This document shows, piece by piece, positions 19,621 to 33,800 of a DNA stretch of 45,751 bases. Source of the stretch: Clostridium sp. GTDB taxonomy: Bacteria > Bacteroidota > Bacteroidia > Bacteroidales > Muribaculaceae. The notes beneath the pieces are model-generated. The model was given only the letters and a program-made list of their open reading frames with translations, was not told the DNA's origin and did no database searches. A program made the translations under genes and the position numbers. The first letter of the stretch is position 1. The number at the start of each line of letters is the position of its first letter. The stretch covers positions 1 through 45,751 of the forward strand of contig JAMPBQ010000011.1 in NCBI GenBank assembly GCA_023666615.1, given 5' to 3'.

Positions 19621-21879
19621 TTAAGAGAGGAGGTCGGCGATTACTTGGGGGATGTCGAGAGCCCAGTCGCGGGTGTAGACACGATCGGCCCGGGCGGGGT
19701 CGTCGACTATCTCCATGCCGCGGGCGTTGGCCATAATGGCGAGGGTTTTGCCTATTGTAGGCTTGCTTTTGAGGCGCTGTAGCATCGCTTGGATGCCATT
19801 GAGCGAGACGGTGAACGCCGCTTGGTCGTCGCTGCCGAGCTCCAGCCAGGTTACTTCATTTTCCTTGACGTCAAGCATTCCGAAAGTTAGCGAGCGGGTT
19901 AGGGAGGTGGGGGCGACTTTCACCATGTGCTGCACTGTGGAGGGGTCGAAAGCAACGCCTGTGGAGTTGGAGACTTTCATGGGATATTTTGAATCCATCC
20001 ATCCGACGCGGGTGTTTACGTCGAGCGTGCCTCCGCTATAATGGCTGGCTACGAACACCACGTATTCGGCGCCCCGCTCGCGCAGGGCGTTTAAGTCAAG
20101 CTCAATGTACTCGGCGGTGCCCACCTTGTCGGGGATTTGGCGAATGTCGCCCGAATGCCGTGCTCCGTAGGGGGATAGGTTGTAGTAAGAGCAATCCTCC
20201 ACGCCCCCGGGATATATGATTTTCGCGCTGAGGTCCAAGTCAATCGGCGCCGCGGCAAGGCCTTCGCCCCAGTTGAGGAATAGGCGCAAAGAGTCGCCTT
20301 CGACCGGGAATTTAGTGCCCTGCGGCACGGAAGAAAAGGCCTGCACGGCGGCGCTGCGGTCGCCCAACGGGAGCACCATAGAATCAAGCTCAGGGTCGAT
20401 ATAGATTTTCACCCCCCGTTCGGGATTGTTTGCATAGTGCCGGCGCAGAAAATCCAAAGAGAGATTTTGGATGGCATGCGCTATTGATTGCAGCTGCTTT
20501 TCGGTGTAGCGGGCAATGGCGGGATTTGCGGGAATGACTTTGCTTTTGCCGGTAAGGGTCTTTACCACTCGGTCGGAGGGTGAGAAATAGCGCTCGGCAT
20601 GGCGGCCAAGTTCAATCACAAGCCGGAGCGGAACGTCGGGGAGGACTGCGCGGAAGGCTTCGAGAGCGGCGTCAGGGTCGGCGAGGATGCTGCTGAAGAG
20701 CTGGCGGGCGAAGAGGCCGGGGTGATGTTTTAATATTGCCAGGGCGGCGGCGCGGTCGCCTTGCCGGATGGCCATGTCGATTTTGCCTTGCGTTACGGCA
20801 TAGCTTTCATCCCACCATACGCGCAGCATGGCGGCCAGGCGTTCGAAGCCGGGCTTCTTTGCGTATTCGGCCAGTCGCAGGGCGCGGATGAATCGCGTCC
20901 ACATTCCCCGCTTTGGGTGCATTATGGCGCAAGCGGCCTTTGGCGACATTTCGAGGCTGTTGAGCCACTGGGCGGCCATGCGGCATTCGCTTCGGCCATA
21001 ATGCAGGCGGAGGTCGCGCTTGGCCTGGGCGGCGAGTATATGCCCGGCGCTTGAGTAAGGAGTGAACCGGTTGGAGTTGGCCAGAAGCGTATTCTTCACA
21101 ATCGTACCGGGCTCAATGACTTGGATGTGGCCTGTGTGGCGGTACCAGAGCAGGCGGAGGACGTCGGCCGGGGATTGCATCAACGCGCCGACGCGGTCGG
21201 CCTGGCCGTTGTCAATCAGGTCAGACGCTATGATGATGGCGTTTTCCTTTACCGGGATTTTGGTTTGCTCGGGCAGCTTTATGCCGGCCTGAAGCAGGCC
21301 TTTAAGGTCTTCTCGGGCAGTGGCGTCGAGGGGAATAGTGGACTCGGCCAGCTGCGTGAGCGTGCGCTGCAGGTCAGCGTCGGCCCAACGCTTAAGCTCC
21401 TTCAGTTTAGAGGCCTGGCCATAGAAGATTTCATCGCCGATGCGGAAAGGCCGGCCGCAGAAGGGGCAGCCGTTGTACCGCTCAAGGTTGAATGTGCCGT
21501 TTGGAATGAGGTGGCCGCAAGGGAGAGTGACGCCGTCAGTCCAAATGCCGCGCTCGCGCAAGAAATTGGCATAGGCGGTGGCGAGATGGTCGATTAGTCC
21601 TTCGCCGGTAGGCTCAAGCCAGCCTTTTACGAGGGGATTCCAATTTAGGTTGACGCCAAGGGCGTCGTTTATGGTCTCAAGGATAAGCCCTTGTGATGAT
21701 GGAGGCAGGGCGTTGAAGGCGCGCAGGGCATCCTCTGCAAGCGTGAATCCGCAACGGCGCAGCTGCTGCAGGCAGTGGGCGGTGGAGGCCGTGACGGGCG
21801 ATGGGGCTGAGGGCAAGTCGGGGAGGTAGAGCGCGCGGTGGCGCAGCGCTATTTTCTGAAGCAATGCCTGTGTCATCAT
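19621..21879 (-). CDS. RING-like zinc-binding protein with TerD-like C-terminal domain
   Basis: A 752-residue cytoplasmic protein that fits the MXAN_6230/SCO0854 family. A zinc-finger candidate lies at C121-x-H123 ... C138-x2-C141 (LPCGHLIPNGTFN then NGCPFCGRPF), like a RING or treble-clef knuckle. A long helical region follows (about 150-480, with repeat-like HHPGLFARQLF, RLVIELGRHAERYF). The C-terminal third (about 540-700) resembles TerD/TED stress domains: LDLSAKIIYPGG, YNLSPYGARHSGDI, AEYIELDLNAL and YVVFVASHYSGG. TerD domains bind calcium and occur in tellurite, phage and stress-response loci, usually with other ter genes, which are absent here. The function is unknown. It has its own consensus promoter overlapping a palindrome. 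Confidence 0.8.
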   Translation of the reverse strand: MMTQALLQKIALRHRALYLPDLPSAPSPVTASTAHCLQQLRRCGFTLAEDALRAFNALPPSSQGLILETINDALGVNLNWNPLVKGWLEPTGEGLIDHLATAYANFLRERGIWTDGVTLPCGHLIPNGTFNLERYNGCPFCGRPFRIGDEIFYGQASKLKELKRWADADLQRTLTQLAESTIPLDATAREDLKGLLQAGIKLPEQTKIPVKENAIIIASDLIDNGQADRVGALMQSPADVLRLLWYRHTGHIQVIEPGTIVKNTLLANSNRFTPYSSAGHILAAQAKRDLRLHYGRSECRMAAQWLNSLEMSPKAACAIMHPKRGMWTRFIRALRLAEYAKKPGFERLAAMLRVWWDESYAVTQGKIDMAIRQGDRAAALAILKHHPGLFARQLFSSILADPDAALEAFRAVLPDVPLRLVIELGRHAERYFSPSDRVVKTLTGKSKVIPANPAIARYTEKQLQSIAHAIQNLSLDFLRRHYANNPERGVKIYIDPELDSMVLPLGDRSAAVQAFSSVPQGTKFPVEGDSLRLFLNWGEGLAAAPIDLDLSAKIIYPGGVEDCSYYNLSPYGARHSGDIRQIPDKVGTAEYIELDLNALRERGAEYVVFVASHYSGGTLDVNTRVGWMDSKYPMKVSNSTGVAFDPSTVQHMVKVAPTSLTRSLTFGMLDVKENEVTWLELGSDDQAAFTVSLNGIQAMLQRLKSKPTIGKTLAIMANARGMEIVDDPARADRVYTRDWALDIPQVIADLLS

Positions 21880-21975
21880 TTGGGTGTCTTTCTGTGCATA
21901 AAAAATGCAGGCAATTGTAAAACTGAAGATCCTATTAATTCATTATGAAGTAAGTCTTACTTGGCCTGCATGAGG

Positions 21976-22009
21976 CAAAATTAGGCATAAGATTTGTATT
22001 GTACAAATC
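21976..22009 (-). promoter_or_regulatory. Promoter of the RING/TerD gene overlapping an 8-bp palindrome
   Basis: On the minus strand TTTG (22007-22004), 20 bp, TAATTTTG (21983-21976) is a full consensus promoter, giving a leader of about 90 nt. GATTTGTA-TTG-TACAAATC (21991-22009) is a perfect inverted repeat covering the -33 box and half the spacer, a natural place for a repressor. Confidence 0.65.
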
Positions 22010-22110
22010 ACGGGGCGCTATTTTGTGCGAAAGGATGATGTTTTTAGGCGAATGTGGTGGAATTATTTAAAAAAAATTGGGGGAGGGGGTGGCGGAATGT
22101 AAAAATGTTG

Positions 22111-22118
22111 TAAATTTG
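22111..22118 (+). promoter_or_regulatory. -7 box for the sugar genes
   Basis: TAAATTTG lies 12 bp before the fdtA-like start codon, so the mRNA would be nearly leaderless. No TTTG stands at the right distance upstream. The 22020-22110 region is otherwise featureless. Confidence 0.4.
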
Positions 22119-22130
22119 CGTGATAGAAAT

Positions 22131-22556
22131 ATGGAAAATCTTCAGCCGCATATTATCGACTTGCCCAAAATTTGCGATCCGCGCGGGAATCTGACCTTCG
22201 TAGAAGGGGGCAGGCACATGCCGTTCAGCATAGCCAGAGCCTTTTGGATATACGATGTTCCGGCCGGCGAAGAGCGGGGCGGCCATTCGCACCATAAGCT
22301 GCACCAGCTGCTTGTGTCGGTTGGCGGGAGCTTTGACGTGAACGTGACCGACGGGTTTACTCGGCGCACGTACACCCTTAACCGGCCTTTCAAGGGGCTG
22401 TACTTGCCGCCGGGAATTTGGAGCGACATCACAAATTTTTCGTCAGGAGGCGTGTGCCTTTCGCTTGTTGATGATTTCTTCAGCGAGGAGGATTACGTAA
22501 GGGATTTTGACGAGTATATGGAATTGGCTAGGGCGCATGGCCCCATAATAAAATGA
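22131..22556 (+). CDS. Sugar 3,4-ketoisomerase (FdtA/QdtA/WxcM-like cupin)
   Basis: A 141-residue single-domain cupin of the dTDP-4-keto-6-deoxyglucose 3,4-ketoisomerase family. Family marks: DPRGNLTFVEG, PFSIARAFWIYDVP, ERGGHSHHKLHQLL (catalytic and metal-like His cluster), GSFDVNV, LYLPPGIWSDITNFSSG and DFFSEEDYVRDFDEY. The product would be the 3-keto sugar that the aminotransferase encoded next converts to a 3-amino-3,6-dideoxy sugar such as Fuc3N or Qui3N. Start 22131 (MENLQPHIIDL) fits the family; frame upstream is spurious. The aminotransferase gene begins eight bases after the stop. Confidence 0.88.
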   Translation: MENLQPHIIDLPKICDPRGNLTFVEGGRHMPFSIARAFWIYDVPAGEERGGHSHHKLHQLLVSVGGSFDVNVTDGFTRRTYTLNRPFKGLYLPPGIWSDITNFSSGGVCLSLVDDFFSEEDYVRDFDEYMELARAHGPIIK

Positions 22557-22563
22557 GAATGTG

Positions 22564-23697
22564 ATGCTTGAATCTTTTCTTGATTTGGCGGCCGTGAACG
22601 CCCCTTTTATGGAAGACATAAAGCGGGCCATGGAGAGGGTGGTTGATTCGGGGCGATATGTAGGCGGCCCGGAGGTAGAGGCCTTTGAAGCGGAGCTGAG
22701 CGCGATTGCGGAGACGCCATACGTGGTGGGCGTAAGCAACGGGCTTGACGCTTTGCGGCTGATACTCAGGGCCTATATGGAGCTTGGGCGGCTTAGGCCG
22801 GGAGACGAGGTGATAGTGCCGGCCAATACGTATATCGCTACTGCCCTGGCTGTTACCGACAATGGGCTAAGGCCAGTGTTCGCTGATGTTTCGCCGGTTA
22901 CCTTCAATCTTGACGCGGAAAAGCTTGAAGAGGCAATGACGCCTCGCACCAGGGCGATTATGCCGGTGCATCTTTATGGGCGAGTATGCTGGGATGAGGC
23001 CTTGGTGGATTTCGCCAGGCGGCATGATTTGATTGTGGTAGAGGACAATGCGCAGGCTATCGGGGCGTCAGCTTCAGCTGAAGGGCTTTTTGGCACGCAT
23101 GCGGCCGGAGGGCTTGGGCATGCCGGCGGGTTCAGCTTTTACCCGACAAAAAATATTGGTGCGATGGGCGACGCCGGAGCTGTGGCCACCCATGACAAGA
23201 AATTGGCGGAGACGGTAAGGGCGTTGGCGAATTACGGAAGCGACAGGCGGTACCATAATGTCTATGAGGGTTTTAATTGCAGGCTTGACCCGGTGCAGGC
23301 GGCTGTGCTGAGGGTGAAGCTGCCGCATTTGGCGGAGATCAATGCGCGCAGACGAGAGCTGGCAGGCATATATGACGCTGAGATTTGCAATCCGCTGGTG
23401 AAGAAGCCGGAGATGCCGAAGGCTGGCGAGGAGCACGTTTGGCACCAGTATGTGGCGCGGGTGGAGAATCGCGACGCATTCCGGGCTTTCTTGGGGGAAA
23501 GGGGCATTGCCACGGATGTGAATTATCCCGTGAATCCGGCGCATCAGCCTTGCTACGCCGCGGAGTATGGCATGGCGGCCACGCCGGCGGCCGACGAGTT
23601 GGCGGAGCAAGTGGTGAGCCTCCCCCTTAACACGGCCTTGAACCCCTCCCAGATTAGCCGCGTGGCCGCCGCCGCAAACCTTTGGAACGGCCGGTAA
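22564..23697 (+). CDS. DegT/DnrJ/EryC1/StrS sugar aminotransferase (FdtB-like)
   Basis: A PLP enzyme of 377 residues that transaminates a nucleotide-linked keto sugar for surface polysaccharide. Motifs: SGRYVGGPEVEAFEAELS at the start, GVSNGLDALRLIL, PGDEVIVPANTYIATA, IMPVHLYGR, VVEDNAQAIGA (PLP Asp), and FYPTKNIGAMGDAGAV containing the Schiff-base lysine. GFNCRLDPVQAAVL is also typical. With the upstream ketoisomerase it makes a dTDP-3-amino-3,6-dideoxyhexose pair. Neither rmlA nor rmlB is in the window, so the precursor must come from elsewhere. Start 22564 ATG rather than 22561 GTG. Confidence 0.92.
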   Translation: MLESFLDLAAVNAPFMEDIKRAMERVVDSGRYVGGPEVEAFEAELSAIAETPYVVGVSNGLDALRLILRAYMELGRLRPGDEVIVPANTYIATALAVTDNGLRPVFADVSPVTFNLDAEKLEEAMTPRTRAIMPVHLYGRVCWDEALVDFARRHDLIVVEDNAQAIGASASAEGLFGTHAAGGLGHAGGFSFYPTKNIGAMGDAGAVATHDKKLAETVRALANYGSDRRYHNVYEGFNCRLDPVQAAVLRVKLPHLAEINARRRELAGIYDAEICNPLVKKPEMPKAGEEHVWHQYVARVENRDAFRAFLGERGIATDVNYPVNPAHQPCYAAEYGMAATPAADELAEQVVSLPLNTALNPSQISRVAAAANLWNGR

Positions 23698-23722
23698 AAT
23701 GCTACTTTATATATAATATATT

Positions 23723-24776
23723 ATGAATCAGATAAATACCCCCCCCCCATTACCCCCACAACCCGCAATCATCAAATATAGATAAGAGAATCGCGTGGAT
23801 TGACGTATCTAGAGGACTGGCTTTTTTGTTGGTGATTTATAGTCACATACCCCAATGTGACGATAAGTTGATGATATATTTTGCGCCAGTTTTTCTCACA
23901 GCTTTCTTTTTTGTATCGGGCTATCTCTACAAAAGTGGACAAAGATTTTCCTATGTTTTAGAACAACGCATTCGTACCCTATTGATACCATTGTTTCTAT
24001 TGGGTATCTTAATGATAGGCATGTCAAAAATTATTTCTTACAAAGAAAGAGTTGACATTTTAGATAGTCTGAAGGATCTGTTCATTCAGTCAGGCTTTGA
24101 ACATTCACCTATCTTATGGTTTGTGGCGGCTCTGTTTGTCTATTCTGTATTCTTTTATTTTGTAGATAGATGGTGCAAAACAACATTGCAGTTTGTAATG
24201 GTTATTGCAGTTCTCTTCATAGTAAATTGTGTGACGAATTATGTATTACACATTCGTTTTTATTGGCATCTGCATTCACTTGGATTTGGAATATTCTATA
24301 TGGGCTTAGGTCGTCTTTATCGACAGTATGAGGATCAAATAGACAAGAATATCAAGTGGTGGATGGTAGTTATATGTCTATTGTGTTATGTGGCATACAT
24401 AGCTTATTCGCAGAAATACATAAGTTGTGGTGGGTCTGAGACAATCATAGACGCAATGATTTTAACGTTGATGGGATTGGTGTTGATAATAACAATATCG
24501 AAAAAATATCTCGGAGGCAGCAAGCTGCTTTTATTCGTTGGCGCCAACTCGCTTTTCTACTTTGCTTTCCATGGGAAGGTTTATGCTGTGATTATATCAA
24601 TAGGCAATAAAGTCGCGCCTGAGCAATTTTCTTCGGACGAATTATTTATTAAGTGTATAGTGGCCTTATCAGTGGTGCTTTTAGACGCTTTAATCCTCAT
24701 TCCCCCAGCTATGTTCGTAAATAAGTATATGCCTCAGATGCTTGGCCGAAAATTTAAGTTATGGAGAGAGGGATAG
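23723..24776 (+). pseudogene. Membrane acyltransferase (acyltransferase_3), out of frame at a poly-C tract
   Basis: From 23778 on, one frame encodes NIDKRIAWIDVSRGLAFLL and continues as an acyltransferase family 3 protein with about ten membrane spans, probably O-acetylating a surface glycan. The conserved RIxWIDxxRG start is complete, but this frame has no ATG or GTG start: it meets a stop at 23733. The only suitable ATG, at 23723 (25 bp after the aminotransferase stop), begins MNQINTPPPP and ends at a stop soon after. The two frames meet at a run of ten C (23739-23748). Nine or twelve C would join them into a protein of about 350 residues. This is either an ON/OFF phase switch caught OFF or a homopolymer error. 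The sequence is clearly more AT-rich than its neighbours. Confidence 0.75.
23739..23748 (+). repeat. Run of ten C at the frame junction of the acyltransferase
   Basis: Ten consecutive C sit six codons into the acyltransferase gene, exactly where the start-codon frame and the domain frame must join. It is the longest C or G run I noticed in the window, and it is set in otherwise AT-rich sequence, which makes it a credible slipped-strand switch. Confidence 0.8.
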
Positions 24777-24860
24777 CGGCCGAGAGAGAGACGGAATGGA
24801 CGAGACGCGCGAAAAATAGGATTAAGAGGTGAGGCTTGGCAAAGAAGTAATGCAGTTTAT

Positions 24861-24955
24861 AAAAAACGCGATGCCACCCGACAAAGTGGTGGCATCGACT
24901 TTACCTTTTTTTATAGTGCAAGGATACATCGACAAAGTATGTATCGGCACTTTTG
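24861..24955 (-). ncRNA. Small RNA with two hairpins sharing one loop, downstream of the Abi gene
   Basis: Read on the minus strand, a consensus promoter (24992-24961) is followed by an RNA of about 95 nt. Hairpin one: GATACAT/ATGTATC (24945-24939 and 24929-24923), extended by AGTGC/GCACT (24915-24919, 24947-24951). Hairpin two: CGATGCCACC/GGTGGCATCG (24897-24888, 24878-24869), followed two bases later by six U (24866-24861), so it is also the terminator. Both loops are the same nine bases, ACTTTGTCG, while the stems are unrelated but perfect. The RNA lies just past the stop codon of the Abi_2/HEPN gene on the same strand. An antitoxin or guide-like role is inference. On the plus strand, the second hairpin could also end the acyltransferase mRNA. 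Confidence 0.65.
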
Positions 24956-24960
24956 TAATG

Positions 24961-24992
24961 CAAAGGTAGTGCTTTTATTTAAATTCTACAAA
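24961..24992 (-). promoter_or_regulatory. Promoter of the small RNA
   Basis: TTTG (24992-24989), 20 bp, TACCTTTG (24968-24961) on the minus strand match both boxes and the spacing exactly. It lies 29 bp past the Abi stop codon and points away from that gene, so the downstream RNA has its own transcription. Confidence 0.72.
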
Positions 24993-25020
24993 TTTTGAGC
25001 ATTAAAATGAGTTTTTAATT

Positions 25021-25899
25021 TTAAATGAGCGTAAAATCGGGAATTAAGGGCTTTAAAGCGGGGGAGTTCAAACACAGTTCACTGTATAAGGCAGTGATTT
25101 TGGAATCCATTTCATTAGCCCTATTGGCTGACACTTGTTTCATTATGTATTTTACAACACGCAGCGCGCCAATAATGTTTCCGGAATCGGTTGACAAAGA
25201 AGATGCGGGGCCTCTGCGGATACGCATCGGCAATTTTAAGTCATAAAGGAGAGAGCCGTGGGCGCAAGCGTTTCGCACATTGCGGATAGTGTGCATATAG
25301 CTTTCAAAAGTAACAACCTGGCGCAAGCCAAATAAATTGGCGATTTTTATCTTGTCGGAGGCGTCTTTCAACTGTTCATACAGTTTTAGCACCGCGCCGA
25401 ATGTCATAAATTCCAAGGTTTTCCAAGCGGGAGCATATTCGTCAGACGGATATTTATGATGGTGTCGCGCAATTACGGGATTAAGTTTAAAATCCGAGTT
25501 GTAAACTTTGTTTTGGAAATTATCAGCATAGGTTCTGTTGACGACTGAAGGGTTTACAAACCACAAATTGTCGTCACTGTACTTATTTGAGAGCGTGTAT
25601 ATCATTGAGGTGCGGAAAGCGATTTCAATGCGGTTTAGATAACGCATTAATAGAAGCCGCAAGTCGAAATCAAAATAATACAAACGGACCGCATCTTCAA
25701 ATGTGCTTCCTTCTGCGTATTGATGTGTCCTTAGAGAAAGTTGGGGATAAGATTTTTCAAAAGGGAATAGGTAGAAGCCAAGGCGATAATATCCTATGTC
25801 AAGAAGGATTTCTTTCGCTTTGTCTTGGTCACGGATTGTAAGGCCCCTCGTCTTAAGGATCTGTAATTGTTTGTCAATGGTTGTGGCGGATTTATTCAT
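25021..25899 (-). CDS. Abi_2 family (AbiD/AbiF-like) HEPN protein, predicted abortive-infection toxin
   Basis: A 292-residue protein of the Abi_2 family, known from phage abortive-infection genes. N-terminal marks: KQLQILKTRGLTI, then ILLDIGYYRLGFYLFPFE (compare GYYRLxGYxxPF), then LNRIEIAFRTSMIY. The HEPN ribonuclease motif RNxxxH is present as R209-N-A-C-A-H214 and appears intact, so RNase activity is expected. The gene is AT-rich compared with the flanking fba and sugar genes, a sign of transfer. It lies alone on the minus strand, with a -7 box upstream and the small RNA downstream. Published work, as I recall it, links AbiF-type proteins to adjacent structured RNAs and to the origin of Cas13. 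That would fit this layout, but has not been tested here. Confidence 0.9.
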   Translation of the reverse strand: MNKSATTIDKQLQILKTRGLTIRDQDKAKEILLDIGYYRLGFYLFPFEKSYPQLSLRTHQYAEGSTFEDAVRLYYFDFDLRLLLMRYLNRIEIAFRTSMIYTLSNKYSDDNLWFVNPSVVNRTYADNFQNKVYNSDFKLNPVIARHHHKYPSDEYAPAWKTLEFMTFGAVLKLYEQLKDASDKIKIANLFGLRQVVTFESYMHTIRNVRNACAHGSLLYDLKLPMRIRRGPASSLSTDSGNIIGALRVVKYIMKQVSANRANEMDSKITALYSELCLNSPALKPLIPDFTLI

Positions 25900-25917
25900 T
25901 TCGTGTCAGTGAAGATA

Positions 25918-25925
25918 CAAAGGTA
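25918..25925 (-). promoter_or_regulatory. -7 box for the Abi gene
   Basis: TACCTTTG on the minus strand (25925-25918), 19 bp before the start codon, is identical to the -7 box of the small RNA at 24968-24961. No TTTG lies at the right distance, so this promoter should be weaker than that of the RNA. Confidence 0.5.
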
Positions 25926-25972
25926 CAAATTTTGTTTGAAAAAATGATTGTGGGAGGGAGCAATTTTTAGGC

Positions 25973-26011
25973 TAAATTTGCGCGGAAAGATAAAAATAAT
26001 CGCTATCTTTG
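25973..26011 (+). promoter_or_regulatory. Promoter region of fba
   Basis: Two -7 boxes point toward fba: TAAATTTG (25973-25980) and TATCTTTG (26004-26011). The TTTG at 25977-25980 could act as a -33 for the second, but with a long 23-bp spacer. The second box gives a leader of about 30 nt. Confidence 0.5.
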
Positions 26012-26049
26012 CGAATAGAAAACCAAATAATGTATAATTTTATTGTAAT

Positions 26050-27045
26050 ATGGTAAGTTACAAGGAATTGGGCCTGGTTAACACTCGCGAGATGTTTGCC
26101 AAGGCCATCAAGGGCGGATACGCAATCCCCGCCTTCAACTTCAACAATATGGAGCAGCTGCAGGCCATCATCAAGGCAGCGGCTGAGGAGAAGTCGCCTG
26201 TTATTCTGCAGGTATCGAAGGGCGCTCGCAACTATGCGAACGCCACCCTTCTTCGCTACATGGCGCAGGGCGCAGTGGCCTACGCCAAGGAGCTTGGCTG
26301 GGAGAATCCCCAGATTGTGCTTCACCTGGACCACGGCGACAGCTTTGAGCTTTGCAAGGACTGCATCGACAATGGCTTCTCATCAGTGATGATCGACGGT
26401 TCGCACCTGCCTTATGAGGAGAATGTGGCTCTGACGAAGAAGGTGGTTGACTACGCTCACCAGTTCGACGTAACGGTAGAGGGCGAGCTTGGCGTATTGG
26501 CCGGCGTTGAGGATGAGGTATCCTCTGACCACCACACCTATACCAACCCTGAGGAGGTTATCGACTTCGCTACCCGCACCGGCTGCGACAGCTTGGCCAT
26601 CTCTATCGGCACGTCGCACGGCGCATACAAGTTTACGCCGGAGCAATGCACCCGCGATGAGAACGGCAAGCTCGTGCCCCCTCCATTGGCATTCGACGTG
26701 CTCGACGCCGTAATGGAGAAGCTGCCCGGGTTCCCCATCGTTCTGCACGGGTCTTCTTCGGTGCCCCAGGAGTATGTGGACATGATCAACGAGTACGGCG
26801 GCAAGCTGCCTGACGCCATCGGCATTCCTGAGGAGCAGCTGCGCAAGGCTGCGAAGAGCGCCGTATGCAAGATCAATATCGACAGCGACAGCCGCCTGGC
26901 TATGACCGCAGCAGTGCGCAAGGTGCTGGCTACGAAGCCGGGCGAGTTTGACCCGCGCAAGTATCTTGGACCGGCCCGTGACGAGATGGAGAAGCTGTAC
27001 AAGCACAAGATTGAGAATGTGCTTGGCAGCGACGGCAAGGCATAA
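26050..27045 (+). CDS. fba: Class II fructose-bisphosphate aldolase
   Basis: Zinc-dependent glycolytic aldolase: fructose 1,6-bisphosphate to and from DHAP and glyceraldehyde 3-phosphate. It is 331 residues. Motifs: AIPAFNFNNMEQLQAII, the zinc site LHLDHGDSFELCKDCIDNGFSSVMIDGSHLPYEENV, VEGELGVLAGVEDEV, SLAISIGTSHGAYKF, and VLHGSSSVPQEYVDMINEYGG. KINIDSDSRLAMTAAVRKVL is the DHAP phosphate-binding end. The regular, GC-ending codons suggest strong expression. It stands alone between its promoter and a strong terminator. Confidence 0.96.
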   Translation: MVSYKELGLVNTREMFAKAIKGGYAIPAFNFNNMEQLQAIIKAAAEEKSPVILQVSKGARNYANATLLRYMAQGAVAYAKELGWENPQIVLHLDHGDSFELCKDCIDNGFSSVMIDGSHLPYEENVALTKKVVDYAHQFDVTVEGELGVLAGVEDEVSSDHHTYTNPEEVIDFATRTGCDSLAISIGTSHGAYKFTPEQCTRDENGKLVPPPLAFDVLDAVMEKLPGFPIVLHGSSSVPQEYVDMINEYGGKLPDAIGIPEEQLRKAAKSAVCKINIDSDSRLAMTAAVRKVLATKPGEFDPRKYLGPARDEMEKLYKHKIENVLGSDGKA

Positions 27046-27070
27046 TCGCTTGATTTCTTAAGATATGGGA

Positions 27071-27111
27071 ATCCCCCTCGGGACCGTTTGGCCTGGAGGG
27101 GGATTTTTTTT
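27071..27111 (+). terminator. Terminator of fba
   Basis: ATCCCCCTC (27071-27079) pairs perfectly with 27096-27104, followed by a run of eight or more T. It is one of the strongest terminators in the window. Confidence 0.93.
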
Positions 27112-27180
27112 CGGTTTTTTGGGGGATGGGGAGGGGCGAGCAGAGCTCGCAAACACAACGAAACAGGGTCGGCATTTTAG

Positions 27181-27330
27181 GGATGATGGGGAGGGGATTT
27201 TACCACGGATTTCACGGATTGCACGGATTTTTTTGATTTTTTTTCAGGATGATGGGGCGGGGATTTTACAACGGATTACACGGAATTTTTGGATTTTTTT
27301 TCAGGATAATGGGGCGGAGGAGTTTTTTTG
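27181..27330 (+). repeat. Imperfect 57-66 bp tandem repeat before the LRR gene
   Basis: The block starting GGATGATGGGG, then GGGGATTTTAC and ACGGATT units, then a T-rich end with TTTTTTTTCA, occurs at 27181-27246 and 27247-27303, with a partial third copy from 27304. A related GGGGATGGGGAGGGG piece is at 27122. Within the first copy ACGGATT also repeats three times. No gene lies in 27112-27400; the repeat and the -7 box at 27334 fill it. Confidence 0.75.
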
Positions 27331-27333
27331 TTG

Positions 27334-27341
27334 TATATTTG
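27334..27341 (+). promoter_or_regulatory. -7 box for the LRR-protein gene
   Basis: TATATTTG, 60 bp before the start codon, fits the -7 consensus. The -33 region falls in the G-rich end of the tandem repeat and shows no TTTG at the right distance. Confidence 0.45.
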
Positions 27342-27401
27342 CGGTTGAATGTTTGAATTTTTTTGTTTTTGAATTTTCTTTTTGCTTTTTGAATCTTTTT
27401 T

Positions 27402-30400
27402 ATGAGGAGTTTTTTGGTTTTTTTTGGTCTGCTTGGCTTTTTGTTTGGCTGGGCTGAGACTTTTGTTGTTGATGGGATTAAGTATACTACATCGAGCGGG
27501 TATAATTGCTATGTTTCGGGGCATACTGATGATGCTCCGGCTGATATTGTGATTCCCGCGACGGTGGAGGGGAACGGGATTGAGTACACTGTGACGCAAA
27601 TCGGGAATGACGGGCTTAGCGGGATTGAGGCCAACAGCTTGGTTTTGCCCAATACGCTTGTTTCGATAGGGCATAGCGGACTATATGGAGCAAAGGTGCC
27701 GGAGGTGAAGGTGCCGGAGGGTGTGACTTATATTGGGAATTATGCGTTTGAGCGCTGCGAGATGGAGGAGATAGAGCTTCCGTCGACATTGACGAGAACG
27801 GGCTATAATCCATTTTTGAATTCGATAAAGCTGAAGGCCATAGAAATTCCGGGAACGCTCGTAACATTAGCCGACAAGACCTTTAGGGGTTGCGCCGCGC
27901 TGGAGAGGGTGGTTATAGGCGAAGGGGTTGTGACATTGGGAGGCGAATGCTTTTACGGCTGCTCAAGCCTGAAGAATCTGACAATAGCGTCAACTGTGAA
28001 TACGATAGGAGGATCCTGCTTTTCGGGATGCGGGTCGCTGAAGGAGATCGCCATACCTGAGGGAGTGACAACGCTCAGCGGCTATACTTTCAACAATTGC
28101 GTGGCGTTGGAGCGGGTGCAATTGCCGTCGACGCTGGAGAAGATAAACGACAGGAGCTTTCGCAATTGCACCTCGCTGCAGGAGATAGACATACCTGAGA
28201 ATGTGAATTATATTGACGGGTATGTGTTTTTGAACTGCACCTCACTGACCAAGGCGACGATACGCTGCAAGGCGGGAAAAATGAGCGGATACACCTTCAA
28301 CACCTGCACATCGCTTACGAGCGTTGAGATTGCTGAGGGCATTACATCGATAGGCGGGGCATTCACGAATTGCACATCGCTGAGGAGCATCAGGCTGCCT
28401 GAGAGCGTGGAAGAGATTGGGGCTTTTTGCTTTGAAAACTGTAAGGCTCTTGAAACGATAGAGCTTCCATCGAATTTGAAAAAGATAGGGTCAAGCTGCT
28501 TCAATGGTTGTGTATCATTGGTGTCAGTTGAATTGCCGGGGAGCGTAGAGGAAATAGGAAGCAGCGCATTTGAGGGATGTTCTTTGCTCAATGGTTTGGT
28601 CTTGCCTTCCAAAATTAAGACTGTAGAATCATATTGCTTCAGGAATTGCGCGCAGCTGGAGAACATACAATTGCCTGAAGGGCTGACGGCGATAAGAAGC
28701 CACGCCTTTGGAGGCTGCGCGGGACTGGGTGAGATAGGTCTTCCAGAATCCGTTACCTCAATAGAGGGTTATGCGTTTTACTACGCAGGACTGAAGAAGA
28801 TAGTTTTGCCGTCGCATTTGAGCAAAATCGGAGAACAATGCTTTAGAGGCTGCACGTCGTTGGAGGAGGCGGTGATTCCGGATGAGATGAAGGAATTGGG
28901 GAACAGCGCTTTTTATGGGTGTTCAGCATTGCATACGATAACGATTGGAAGGGGCATATCGTCGATAGGAGGTTGGACTTTTTATAATTGCAAGGCGTTG
29001 AGGAAGATTGTTTGCAGGAATTTGTTGCCGCCGACATACAGCAATACACAGCTTGACAGCCAGGTTTACGCGGAGGCTGAGCTTGAGGTGGACGCGAGCT
29101 GCGTGCATTTGTACAGGGAGCACGCGGTTTGGGGAAAATTTGCGAACATCAAGGGCGTTGATTTTGGATACACCACCACCTTTGACCTTTCGGAGTGGGA
29201 GACCGTGAAGAAGATTGGGGAAGAATTGAAGGCCAACGGATGGAGCAACGCATGGCGCACTGAGGTAGGGCCCAATGTGGCAAGGCAGCTGTCGGGGCTG
29301 ACGATAGAGGACGACCATGTAGTGGGCATTAGCTTGTCTAACTGCAAGGTGAACGGCGCGGCGCTGGCGGCCATGATGGAATTTCCGAAGCTGCGGAGCC
29401 TGAACGTATCGAACAACGCCATAGAGGGAGATATCGCGGAATTGATTTCGGAAGCGACGGTGAATGAAAACTTGACGAGCCTTGACATATCGAACAACAA
29501 ATTCAGAGGGAACATAGCCTGGGTGAACGAGCGATTCCCGAATTTGGCCACGTTGACGGCGAACAAGAACCACTTCAGCCGGGTAGAGCCGGCGTTGAAC
29601 GCAAAGACTGTCAACATCAACGACCAGGAGATAGAGGAGCCCATGCGGTGGACTTTCGGACCGATGGACAAGGACGAGATGGTGGCGATGATGCCGAACA
29701 TATTGCTTTATGAGCACAACAACAAATCGTACAAGACGAGCCCGACATTCAACATAAAGAGCGACGCCAACAGCGCAAGCGGAACACAAACCTTGTTATT
29801 GGAATCTACGCTCACAGAAGGCGTCTATAATTATAGGTCACCGAACTGGAGATATAATTATATATTCAAAATCAACGAAAAATATGATTTATATCTTACG
29901 ATTATCAACCATTCATCGGGGAACGTGGCGGTGATACTGGATTTTGTGGAGGGCGACTGCAATTGCGACGCCGTGGCGGACATAGCAGACGTGCAGAATC
30001 TGGTGAACTATATTTTGGGCTACGGGCAGAACAATAAGGTGTTTAACGAGCAGGTAGTGGACTTTGACAAGAATGAAAAGCTAAACGTGCTGGATGCGGT
30101 GGGGCTAGTGAACCACCTTTTGGAGCAAGACCTGGGCAGGAACTTGGCCAAGGCGCCGATGGCTGAAATGGCAGAAGCGGGAGCGAAGATATGCGCCAGG
30201 GGCGGAAAACTTGAGCTTGAGGCCGGGGAGGCCGTATCCGCGCTGGACATAACGATAAGTGGCGGCAAAGAATTTGCGCTGTCAGCCGCGCTGAGGGAAG
30301 CGGGATTCACCTGCGCCACCAAGTGCCAAGGCGGGATGGAGAGGATAATCATCTACTCGGCCGGCGGGGCAAGGCTGCCGGAAGGGACGGTGGAGCTTGG

Positions 30401-30722
30401 AACGGCAGAGGGCGCAGAGATAGCCAAATGCGAGGCCTGCACGCCCGAAGGAGAAAAAATAGCCGTTAGCGCAGGCTATGAGACATCAGGGATAGCTGAC
30501 GCCGAGACAGAGGCGGGACAAATAGCCGTGGGCGGGCGCAGCATAAGAGTGCCGGCGAGATACATCGGCGGAGCATGGACGGCATATGACATGGGCGGCA
30601 GGACAGTGGCCCAGGGGGCTGTTGCCGAAGGAATCAGCGAAAAAATAAACGCGCCCGGGCCTTGCATCCTGGTGATATCGAAGGCGGGAGAAGAGAGCCT
30701 AACCGAGAAGATAAACTTTTAA
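27402..30722 (+). CDS. Secreted BspA-type leucine-rich-repeat protein with dockerin-like segment
   Basis: A 1106-residue exported protein. The signal peptide (MRSFLVFFGLLGFLFGWAE) is followed by about 20 BspA/TpLRR repeats of about 23 residues (about 45-560; pattern CxxLxxIxLPxxVxxIGxxxFxxC). A second block has canonical LRRs (640-720, LRSLNVSNNAIEGDI and LTSLDISNNKFRGNI). Residues about 848-908 contain two calcium-loop-like helices, DCNCDAVADIADVQNLVNYIL and FDKNEKLNVLDAVGLVNHLL, as in type I dockerins. A cohesin-like beta region (about 925-1030) and a type IX-like tail (TAYDMGGRTVAQG, CILVISKAG) end it. BspA proteins mediate adhesion to host matrix or other bacteria. It precedes the 2070-residue gene by 98 bp. 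Arg AGG and Ile ATA codons are frequent. Confidence 0.9.
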   Translation: MRSFLVFFGLLGFLFGWAETFVVDGIKYTTSSGYNCYVSGHTDDAPADIVIPATVEGNGIEYTVTQIGNDGLSGIEANSLVLPNTLVSIGHSGLYGAKVPEVKVPEGVTYIGNYAFERCEMEEIELPSTLTRTGYNPFLNSIKLKAIEIPGTLVTLADKTFRGCAALERVVIGEGVVTLGGECFYGCSSLKNLTIASTVNTIGGSCFSGCGSLKEIAIPEGVTTLSGYTFNNCVALERVQLPSTLEKINDRSFRNCTSLQEIDIPENVNYIDGYVFLNCTSLTKATIRCKAGKMSGYTFNTCTSLTSVEIAEGITSIGGAFTNCTSLRSIRLPESVEEIGAFCFENCKALETIELPSNLKKIGSSCFNGCVSLVSVELPGSVEEIGSSAFEGCSLLNGLVLPSKIKTVESYCFRNCAQLENIQLPEGLTAIRSHAFGGCAGLGEIGLPESVTSIEGYAFYYAGLKKIVLPSHLSKIGEQCFRGCTSLEEAVIPDEMKELGNSAFYGCSALHTITIGRGISSIGGWTFYNCKALRKIVCRNLLPPTYSNTQLDSQVYAEAELEVDASCVHLYREHAVWGKFANIKGVDFGYTTTFDLSEWETVKKIGEELKANGWSNAWRTEVGPNVARQLSGLTIEDDHVVGISLSNCKVNGAALAAMMEFPKLRSLNVSNNAIEGDIAELISEATVNENLTSLDISNNKFRGNIAWVNERFPNLATLTANKNHFSRVEPALNAKTVNINDQEIEEPMRWTFGPMDKDEMVAMMPNILLYEHNNKSYKTSPTFNIKSDANSASGTQTLLLESTLTEGVYNYRSPNWRYNYIFKINEKYDLYLTIINHSSGNVAVILDFVEGDCNCDAVADIADVQNLVNYILGYGQNNKVFNEQVVDFDKNEKLNVLDAVGLVNHLLEQDLGRNLAKAPMAEMAEAGAKICARGGKLELEAGEAVSALDITISGGKEFALSAALREAGFTCATKCQGGMERIIIYSAGGARLPEGTVELGTAEGAEIAKCEACTPEGEKIAVSAGYETSGIADAETEAGQIAVGGRSIRVPARYIGGAWTAYDMGGRTVAQGAVAEGISEKINAPGPCILVISKAGEESLTEKINF

Positions 30723-30731
30723 ATCTGAAAC

Positions 30732-30845
30732 AGCCAAGACTGAAAGACGATAATAGGATAGCCAAGACTTAAGGACGATAATAAAATAAGCCAAGACTAA
30801 AGAATGACAATAAAACAGCCATGAACCTAAGGACGATAATAAGCA
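30732..30845 (+). repeat. Four 28-29 bp tandem repeats; the last contains the start codon
   Basis: Units begin with AGCC at 30732, 30760, 30789 and 30817. They share AGCCAAGACT, a purine-rich centre and GACGATAATA. In the fourth copy AGCCATGAACCTAAGG supplies the ATG of the next gene, and its GGACGATAATA encodes Arg-Thr-Ile-Ile. The leader thus appears to be made of copies of the gene's own first codons. No promoter box is apparent in the 98-bp gap. Confidence 0.85.
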
Positions 30846-33800
30846 AGACAATCATATTGACGCTGATGCTTGCCGCCTATGCGGGGGCGATGGGGCAGCG
30901 CATGAACAAACTGTGGATAGCGGACTGCGCCGGCACAGCGACAAAAACGATAGACGTATTCGTAAACTTAGACAATACGGACGAAATCACGGCATTTCAG
31001 TTTGACTTGACCGCGCCTAGCGGCTACAGCTTTGGGTCGGAGTTTGTGAAATCAGAAAGATTAGGCGAGAGCCATGCCGTGGCGATCAGGCTCATCTCCG
31101 CCAACAATGTGAGGGTGATAGGCTACGCGGCTGACAACTCGGCCATAAGGGGCAACGCCGGGGCATTGGGGCATATCTCGCTCACCATCCCCGCCAACGC
31201 AGCGGAAGGGACCGAGCAGACGATAAGCATAACCGAGGCCATTCTGGGCAACAGCCAGATGGAGAACACGCTGACCGAGGCCGCGGACGGGAAATTGACC
31301 ATCGCGACAATGCCCGACATAGAGGTGAGCGGCGTTGGCACGAGCGCCACCAAGGCCAGCCCCGGCGACGAGATAGACTTGAGATGGACTGTGAGCAACA
31401 TAGGGACAGTGGCGCTGAAGGGCGGATGGAAAGAGACCATAAGGGCAAAGGGAGCCGACGGGCGCACCGCCACCATCTATGAAGGATACTCCGACGTGGA
31501 AGGTCTGGGCGGCAAGGCGACCATCGAAAGAGAGGCAACAGGAAAAATCCCCGCGCTGCCGGGAATAGACGGCGACATAACCCTGGAGGCCGAGGTGACG
31601 CCCGGCGACGAATCAGGCGAATCGCAAAGCGCGACGGTCAACAACACCGCGAGCTCAGCGGAGACATTCTTCCTGGACAAATACATGACGCTGAAAATAT
31701 CCAAGAAAGAGATAAGAGAGGGCGTTACAGCAGAATGCACGCTGACGAGAAGCGGGTCGTGGGCAGAGGCGCAGACCTTCACAATCAAGGGCACAGAGAG
31801 CGGCAGATACACATATCCGGCCACAGTGACCATACCACGCGGGTCGTCGGCCAAGACGTTCAACGTGACGGCGACAAACAACAACCTTCTTGACGGCAAC
31901 ATCGAGGGCGAAATTACGATAGAAGGAAACGGATACGAGGCTGTTGGAACGACTTTTACGATAATAGACGACGAAAAGCCCGACTTTGAGATAAGCGTAG
32001 TGCTCGACAACGTGACCGAAGGCAAGAACTTCCCGCTAAAGATAGACCTGGGGTGCGAGCTGCCGACGGCTACAACGGTGAGCTTCGCCACCAGCCACCC
32101 CAACAGAGTGGAGCTGCCGAAGAGCGTAGAGATACCTGCGGGGACAACATCCGTGACCTTGCCCATCCCGACAAGCGACAGCGACGAAATAGACGGGAAC
32201 GTGACGGCGTCGATCATAGCCACGACCGAGCTCTATGGCGAGAGCACCGACGCGATCACCATCGTGGACAAAGACATGCCCAAGCTGGAGATGACGCTTT
32301 CGAGCGACGTGCTGCACAAGGGAGAAGAGAGCTACTATGCGAACATAAAACTTGACCGCGAGGCAAAAAGCGAAATAAGGATAGAGCTGTCCGACAATTC
32401 AAACGGACTCCTGGAGATAGGGAGCGCGACGGCGGTGATACCCGCTGGAGAGACAGAGGCGATCGTGCCGCTGAGCGTATCGGACAAAAAGATAGGGGCA
32501 TCGTCGAAGCGCTGCACGCTCACCGCAGCTGTTGTCATCAAAAACTGCAACTGCTCAGCCAGCGCAGAGACATCAGGGCACACAAGCCGCGAGCTGACGA
32601 TAATAGACCCCAGCCAAAACCGATTGACCCTCTACTGCGACGAGCTCTTCACGCTTGAGGCGCCCAAGAAGCAAATAATGGTGAAGCGCAACGGCGACTT
32701 GACCAAGGCGCTGACCGTCAACTTAAGCGCAACGGCGCCTCTGACAGTGGCATCAAGCGTCTCCATCCCCGCCGGCGCAGAGACAGCATACTTTGAGGCG
32801 CAGCTTCTGGGCACAGAAGAAGAGAAGACCGGCATGGCGATGATAAAGGCGCAGGCCAGCGGATACTACCAGGGCGGGTGCATAGCCATGTACACCACCG
32901 AGAGGCTTCCCGACGCCACGATAAGCCTTGCAACTGAAGAAGGGCAGAAGATAGTGGGCGGCGGAAAGATGGCCTTAAAGGCGACGATAACCAACAAAGG
33001 CAACGCACCGCTGCCCAAGGGCGTAGGCATAAGCATAGAATCGGAGGGATTCAAAGCGCCCTACAGCTTTGACCTGGAGGCGGACTTGGCCGCGGGAGGG
33101 AGCATTGAAAATAAGATAGAGGCGGAATTGATAGAGGCCAAGGCGAGCTTCAACATCGTAGGCGCCGTGAACCGAGGCAAAGAAGCAAAAGAAGTGAGCT
33201 ACGCCAACAACAGCTCCAGCATCATATGCGCAACAGCGGCGCCCTTCACCATAAGCCTGCGGGCCGACAAAGAAATGTACTATCCCGGTGAGACAATCAA
33301 GCTGACGGGCAAGGCCGAGGGCGAGAATACGGCAAACGCCGAGGTAGACATATATTTCGTATCGAGCACCGGCAACGTCAGCCAGACCAAGGCTAAGACC
33401 AACGCGCAAGGCGAGATCATTCACGAGACGACGGCCAAGCATGCGGGATACTACCAGGCTGTGGCCGGCTACCGCGGCGACATCAACGGGGGCGAGCAGG
33501 CTGAATACAACGTGCTGGGCTTCAAGGTGGATACTCCAAACGTCAAATGCGGACTGAAGCAGAATGAAGAATACGAGGGCGAGATTTCCATAACGAATCC
33601 CATGTCGATGGAGCTGACGGGGCTAAAATTCGCCTATGACTTAAAAGGGCAGGAAGGCAAGCTAAGCTTAAAGATAGACGAGACGGCAAGCATTCCGGCG
33701 AGAACAGCGGCAAGAGTGCCATTCAAGATAAAGAGCTCGGCGCTGACCGAAGGCGACGCATGGAACAATATCGAAGTGACCGCAACGGCCGACAAGGGCT

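Follow-up and report, generated by a model that had tools for sequence, protein, structure and literature searches.

Type III toxin-antitoxin systems such as ToxIN, CptIN and TenpIN combine a ribonuclease toxin of ToxN-like fold with an RNA antitoxin made of repeated units. Abi_2 proteins of the AbiF type have likewise been tied to neighbouring structured RNAs and to the ancestry of Cas13; an earlier note on the DNA studied here named both links, and both are in print (PMC12373285, PMC12165695). In the RCd22-AbiFCd system of Clostridioides difficile phi027, AbiF is toxic and needs R202 and H207, and RCd22, an RNA of about 100 nt with two abiF motifs, binds AbiF and silences it in cis and in trans (PMC12373285). 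Intact stems are required in RCd22 and compensatory stem changes are tolerated (PMC12373285). In an AlphaFold3 model, the RNA part of which is of low confidence, its two motifs contact the same zones of two protomers, and the unpaired stretch that joins the motifs occupies a basic groove at the active site (PMC12373285). PbAbiF with its ncRNA (PDB 8vz6) holds one RNA per protomer (PMC12737573).

The locus described here lies in the window, that is, the whole stretch of 45,751 nt that was analysed. Like RCd22-AbiFCd, it has an Abi_2 HEPN protein and an RNA of about 100 nt that contains a hairpin motif twice, preceded by a promoter and followed by a terminator. RCd22, however, lies upstream and is read through into abiF (PMC12373285), and other Bacteroidales abiF-like RNAs also sit in an upstream leader, whereas the window RNA is downstream with its own promoter, which counts against the toxin-antitoxin reading developed below. 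The RCd22 motifs are RF03085; the window RNA has no RF03085 match, and its second motif copy is itself the terminator. PbAbiF falls outside the clade of Abi_2 proteins with the two-hairpin RNA, since it scores 110.9 bits against the window protein compared with 260-283 bits for seven intact clade members, and for the window system we propose one two-loop RNA per dimer instead of one RNA per protomer. With the type III systems the locus shares repeated RNA units and an RNA antitoxin expected to inhibit a ribonuclease toxin, but its HEPN fold is not ToxN-like, its RNA is downstream and has two units, and the sole pseudoknot tested is unsupported. With CRISPR-Cas13 it shares a HEPN ribonuclease of related ancestry (PMC12165695), but no array was seen among 20 of the 25 direct-repeat families of the 20-31 kb region, and it has no spacer and one HEPN motif.

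The window protein is an Abi_2 protein by Pfam (159 bits, cut-off 25.6), as are all eight members of an eight-protein alignment (A1), and PADLOC calls it AbiD. RNACAH (residues 209-214) is its sole HEPN motif of this type; R209 and H214 are intact, as the earlier note had stated, and R, N and H are invariant across the eight sequences. Within the stretch searched, the motif is present in 75 of 77 clade representatives and 20/20 proteins of the sister group. With the window protein as sole query, intact relatives (43-50% identity) turned up in seven further genomes of the order, two fragments in an eighth (G333), and relatives of 48-51% identity in four viral contigs. Matches in the 293 plasmid and 28 phage records were all below 60% identity (25-32% in the 15 rows listed), so the clade was not seen there. 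Foldseek and VIA rows ranking below PbAbiF and Cas13d were treated as noise. An aldolase gene is common to the window and its relatives; upstream of it nothing aligned in the 12 relatives compared, of 13 found, and the empty-site comparison therefore carries no information on mobility. Elsewhere in the window, on the minus strand (19621-21879), a 752-aa protein with a weak match to the Prok-RING_4 zinc finger (25.1 bits, cut-off 27) may be part of a prokaryotic module for defence or signalling. On the plus strand (22077-24776) a run of FdtA-like, DegT-type aminotransferase and acyltransferase genes faces the RNA and is probably a small amino-sugar cassette.

Table 1. Features of the Abi_2 locus and its two-hairpin RNA (window coordinates)
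Feature	Position	Strand	Remarks
Two-hairpin RNA, predicted antitoxin	24861..24956	minus	covariance model R1 matches 24864-24956, 89.7 bits (window is one of the model's 22 rows); covariation; predicted length about 95 nt
Terminator T run	24861..24866	minus	six T, preceded by CG; read directly
Hairpin 2 (terminator), stem P3	24869..24897	minus	CGATGCCACC / ACTTTGTCG / GGTGGCATCG; loop 24879-24887 ACUUUGUCG; two-sided changes in 10/10 P3 pairs (88-sequence alignment A3)
Conserved UAUAAAA between hairpins	24909..24915	minus	first U also in P1; consensus UNUAAAA, mean conservation 0.87 in 50 representatives
Outer helix P1, 3' arm GCACU	24915..24919	minus	supported by conservation, hardly by covariation
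Hairpin 1, stem P2	24923..24945	minus	GATACAT / ACTTTGTCG / ATGTATC; loop 24930-24938 ACUUUGUCG; two-sided changes in 6/6 P2 pairs (A3)
Outer helix P1, 5' arm AGUGC	24947..24951	minus	pairs with 24915-24919; near-invariant; supported by conservation, hardly by covariation
RNA promoter, -7 box TACCTTTG	24961..24968	minus	TAnnTTTG before 80/85 RNA copies
RNA promoter, -33-like element TTTG	24989..24992	minus	spacer to -7 box 20 nt; read directly
Abi_2 / AbiD-F HEPN protein gene	25021..25899	minus	292 aa, predicted RNase toxin; RNACAH motif R209-H214
Abi_2 gene, -7 box TACCTTTG	25918..25925	minus	no TTTG at -33 spacing; read directly

Direct reading agrees with the earlier note that the RNA has two hairpins with different perfect stems and an identical nine-base loop, that the second hairpin is the terminator, and that a consensus promoter stands just behind the Abi_2 stop codon on the same strand (Table 1). 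The stems of the two hairpins are unrelated. The -7 box lies 52 bases 3' of the stop codon, and the combination of TTTG, 20 nt and TACCTTTG is one we take to be of Bacteroidota type. The further claim that this promoter is better than that of the toxin gene holds for the consensus only, as TACCTTTG precedes both and TTTG at -33 just the RNA. The folding energy of the RNA is -32.2 kcal/mol, whereas its shuffles average -18.4 (z -4.39; 0 of 200 as low). The earlier note had missed the outer helix, which encloses hairpin 1, and the UAUAAAA that follows; these are the most conserved pieces of the RNA family. Nor does the hairpin pair, as judged from two checks, recur in the genome away from Abi_2, which the earlier note had named as a finding that would refute its reading: the loop 9-mer occurs 24 times, twice within this RNA, and none of six of the other 22 occurrences inspected by eye is flanked by a stem, while a scan of the genome with the RNA model gave 84.6 bits for the window RNA and 27.3 bits for the runner-up, by eye a plain terminator.

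The RNA belongs to a family with conserved structure. In ten loci with visible flanks (L002-L008, L031-L033) a similar RNA was seen by eye, behind the gene in nine and before it in L008. From the 80 loci found with an eight-protein profile (the best 80 of 339 confirmed relatives), 22 RNAs were picked for their clear appearance and aligned with MAFFT, which uses no structure information. RNAalifold folded this alignment into three helices with two-sided changes in 14/19 pairs. Compared with shuffles, more cells were paired (87.4% versus 65.2%), more showed two-sided change (123 versus 43.6) and the covariation score was higher (0.627 versus 0.206, and at most 0.160 with partners slid); the number of pairs with any two-sided change, 17, is a coarser measure and was equalled in 5/500 shuffles. 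The covariance model built from the 22 rows (R1), of which the E-values are rough given a short calibration, matched all 80 loci at E <=0.005; 61 of them lie outside the model, and the match in L092 is cut by a contig end. Across 88 aligned matches (A3) each of the 16 pairs in the inner helices P2 and P3 shows two-sided change, with 554 two-sided cells against 168 in shuffles (the coarser pair count was equalled in 27/500), although this alignment, being fitted to the model, leans towards it. Outer helix P1 hardly varies, a single A-U to C-G exchange being its variation across A3, so it rests on conservation and covariation is no test of it. A pseudoknot between loop 1 and the AAAGU linker, hinted at by close relatives of the window RNA, was rejected, as only 56.7% of its cells pair in the 88 sequences and its covariation score was reached by 367/500 shuffles.

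The promoter sequence accompanies nearly all copies of the RNA. TAnnTTTG occurs within 32 nt before 80 of 85 RNA copies (1% in shuffles; L127, L133 and L137 were left out of this count), in 71 of these 80 at 10-12 nt before GUGC, and 73 of those 80 also have a TTG 15-26 nt ahead of the box (16% in shuffles).

The family is also closely tied to one Abi_2 clade. The structured RNA accompanies the toxin gene in 80/80 loci, and in the loci examined it was present at every intact clade gene whose flanks are visible. Cultured carriers of the pair are Alloprevotella rava DSM 22548 (L099), Bacteroides oleiciplenus YIT 12058 (L059) and Prevotella jejuni DSM 26989 (L096). Rows L009, L034, L115 and L126, in which gene or flank is cut by a contig end, were dropped. 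Placement was determined in 95 loci, leaving out L120, L121, L127, L133 and L137: 94 copies are downstream, three upstream (L008, L124, L125) and one unplaced (L060, where the frame runs on into the RNA), all on the strand of the gene. Most downstream copies (89 of 94) begin 10-100 nt after the stop codon, with a median of 60; an RNA also precedes the gene fragment L127. In three loci (L004, L005, L061) a single Abi_2 gene is followed by a tandem of two unlike RNA genes, the extra one differing in its loops. The tandem copy that carries GUGUAUUUGG and UAUAAAC is of a type that stands by itself in L106-L108 and L110.

Genomes were also scanned for the RNA alone, with strict filters that lose weak matches. 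R1 matched in 10 of 393 genomes of the order, in seven beside a protein of the same clade; of these, the window RNA is in the model, as is a near copy of the RNA of G277 and G189, and G025, G289, G327 and G356 are independent. One known case, G173, with an upstream RNA of 28.2 bits, was missed. A second RNA model (R2) matched in nine of 395 genomes of the phylum, including the window and G327, which are both in the model; three are new and come from a single family in a different order of the class, each with the RNA beside an Abi_2 protein 40-45% identical to that of the window. The RNA occurs in Bacteroidales, by record titles, and in that one family. The locus search and these scans bear out the earlier prediction that the same RNA would be found beside Abi_2 homologues. 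The remaining three R1 matches are L133 (G305), an RNA at a contig edge, L137 (G208), a clear two-hairpin RNA with promoter and terminator, and L136, probably a chance match; no same-clade protein was found in the genomes of L133 and L137, nor in that of L154 (G499), a clear orphan RNA with promoter and terminator that the R2 scan matched. The orphans L137 and L154 are possibly relics or solitary antitoxins; by eye, L154 adjoins a resolvase-like gene. These two and L133 count against the toxin-antitoxin reading. The overall pattern, RNA without toxin but no toxin without RNA, is the one expected from loss out of a toxin-antitoxin pair, although the cases are few. Weak matches that by eye resemble plain terminators without a promoter (L136, L156, L157, L158, L171) were not counted as members; the remaining three R2 matches, near 29 bits, look like plain terminators.

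Within single RNAs the two loops resemble each other. The likeness of loop 1 to loop 2 is 0.283 within one RNA and 0.105 (sd 0.028) between RNAs (46 RNAs, 80% redundancy), and 0 of 5000 permutations were as high at 95, 80, 70 and 62% redundancy (77, 46, 34 and 23 RNAs; four rows without a readable loop 1 were omitted). In the stem-arm control, 387, 54, 27 and 150 of 2000 permutations were as high at the same levels; as the arms come nearer to the permutations yet are not always level with them, shared ancestry inflates the loop test somewhat. The earlier note had seen a conserved loop on changed stems. This is true of the window's close relatives, but family-wide the loop is loosely conserved. 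In 50 representatives of less than 80% identity, mean conservation is 0.95 for the outer helix, 0.87 for UNUAAAA, 0.72 for loop 1, 0.71 for loop 2, 0.56 for the inner stem and 0.46 for the terminator stem. Loop 1 has the strict core pattern in 23 representatives and loop 2 in 22, and 18 have it in both (49, 45 and 37 of all 88), so that to speak of the same loop throughout would be an overstatement, and the count of 18 for both loops is held against the toxin-antitoxin reading. Loop 2 has seven bases inside the closing pair in 25 of 41 readable representatives, with a CUUNGUC-like core as the commonest, and a sub-group around L093, L103 and L109 has loops quite different from the rest. Two matched loops on a single RNA are most simply explained by a pair of identical docking sites, such as a protein homodimer provides.

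How the RNA relates to abiF RNA is a matter of descent and not of mechanism. The protein falls into a known family, and the pair very probably acts as AbiF does with its RNA. The RNA itself matched no known Rfam family and shows neither of two abiF RNA features: it lies downstream of the Abi_2 gene, and RF03085 found nothing in the window at gathering, nothing up to E 10 in 24750-25950 and nothing up to E 5 in 12 clade relatives. Helix plan, loop and position all differ as well, and the tree (99 clade proteins thinned to 77; L030 excluded for internal stops) shows one clean split. It is somewhat less likely than not that the RNA is a strongly diverged abiF RNA that moved downstream rather than a separate kind; such a descent would be compatible with the mechanism proposed below. 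The sister group carries abiF RNA, both are short hairpin RNAs, and RCd22 likewise fits two copies of its motif into about 100 nt (PMC12373285). Moreover, RF03085 misses 14 of 21 sister loci at gathering, none of which it finds up to E 1, so a non-match proves little and remote kinship keeps weight. Among these more distant Bacteroidales Abi_2 loci (L010-L030), 14 of 21 have an upstream hairpin, mostly CCACGCUUCCC..GAACAGCGC..GGG, which resembles an abiF RNA variant, and Rfam's RF03085 model seems too narrow. No prior description of the two-hairpin RNA was found in the literature searched, in which the Cas13-from-AbiF study of Zilberzwige-Tal et al. was represented by its treatment in other papers.

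We propose, with a probability of roughly 0.77, that the locus encodes an AbiF-type RNA-protein toxin-antitoxin pair. The Abi_2 protein would be a homodimeric HEPN ribonuclease that arrests growth by cutting RNA, probably upon phage infection. The small RNA would be transcribed from its own promoter behind the gene, bind the dimer, keep it off and be able to act in trans. Each matched loop may dock on one protomer of the homodimer, while the UNUAAAA conserved between the hairpins may span the HEPN active site that the protomers share. Besides the points named above, the scarcely varying outer helix, the shuffles that equal the coarser pair count, the unsupported pseudoknot and the low confidence of the RNA part in the RCd22 model (PMC12373285) weigh against this reading. 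The logic is that of RCd22 with other parts, namely matched loops, free stems and the conserved UNUAAAA, hence the reading as an RNA antitoxin. The interpretation given in the earlier note, an Abi_2 toxin with an RNA antitoxin, is thus supported, the antitoxin role being what we infer.

Three other functions were weighed. In most loci the RNA immediately follows the stop codon (median 60 nt), and its second hairpin serves as terminator; both would suit a cis element of the Abi_2 mRNA, a 3' UTR with terminator that sets mRNA stability and yields no separate RNA or antitoxin. We consider this unlikely, since the promoter box precedes 80/85 copies at near-fixed spacing, conserved loops in both hairpins are unusual for a terminator, and the RNA also occurs upstream (L008, L124, L125), before the gene fragment L127 and without the gene (L137, L154). 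Exposed loops are typical seed regions, and the RNA could be an antisense or trans-acting sRNA that controls Abi_2 or other genes by base pairing rather than protein binding. However, its stems evolve as structure, loops matched to each other fit two identical binding sites better than a target mRNA, and the solved and tested relatives bind protein (PMC12373285; PDB 8vz6), which makes base pairing more improbable still. A guide that leads the protein to a target, like a crRNA with Cas13, is hardly to be expected: the loops are matched or conserved instead of spacer-like variable, no CRISPR array was found beside Abi_2 among 20 of the 25 direct-repeat families listed for 20000-31000, the protein has a single HEPN motif, and the RNA of AbiF has been described as an antitoxin, with guided cleavage arising newly in Cas13e (PMC12737573).

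A more speculative idea, which we rate as unlikely, is that one Abi_2 clade swapped abiF RNA for an unrelated antitoxin RNA, the matched loops of which imitate the loop that the toxin has as its natural substrate, possibly an anticodon-like hairpin, and occupy the same site in each protomer. In tRNAs the base after the anticodon is a purine. The corresponding position in the RNA loops is mostly U, which counts against the anticodon form of this idea. If the idea were true, the loop pair would evolve in step with toxin specificity, and the target of the toxin could be read from its antitoxin.

Under the toxin-antitoxin reading, a clade with another RNA, in another position and with an internal two-fold repeat, would be a natural second solution beside abiF RNA, and comparison of the two makes the RNA features that silence a HEPN dimer directly testable. 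A covariance model is now available for an RNA that Rfam 15 does not detect. As AbiF with its RNA is regarded as the ancestral stock of Cas13, the silencing of such an enzyme by RNA would bear on the origin of the guide RNA.
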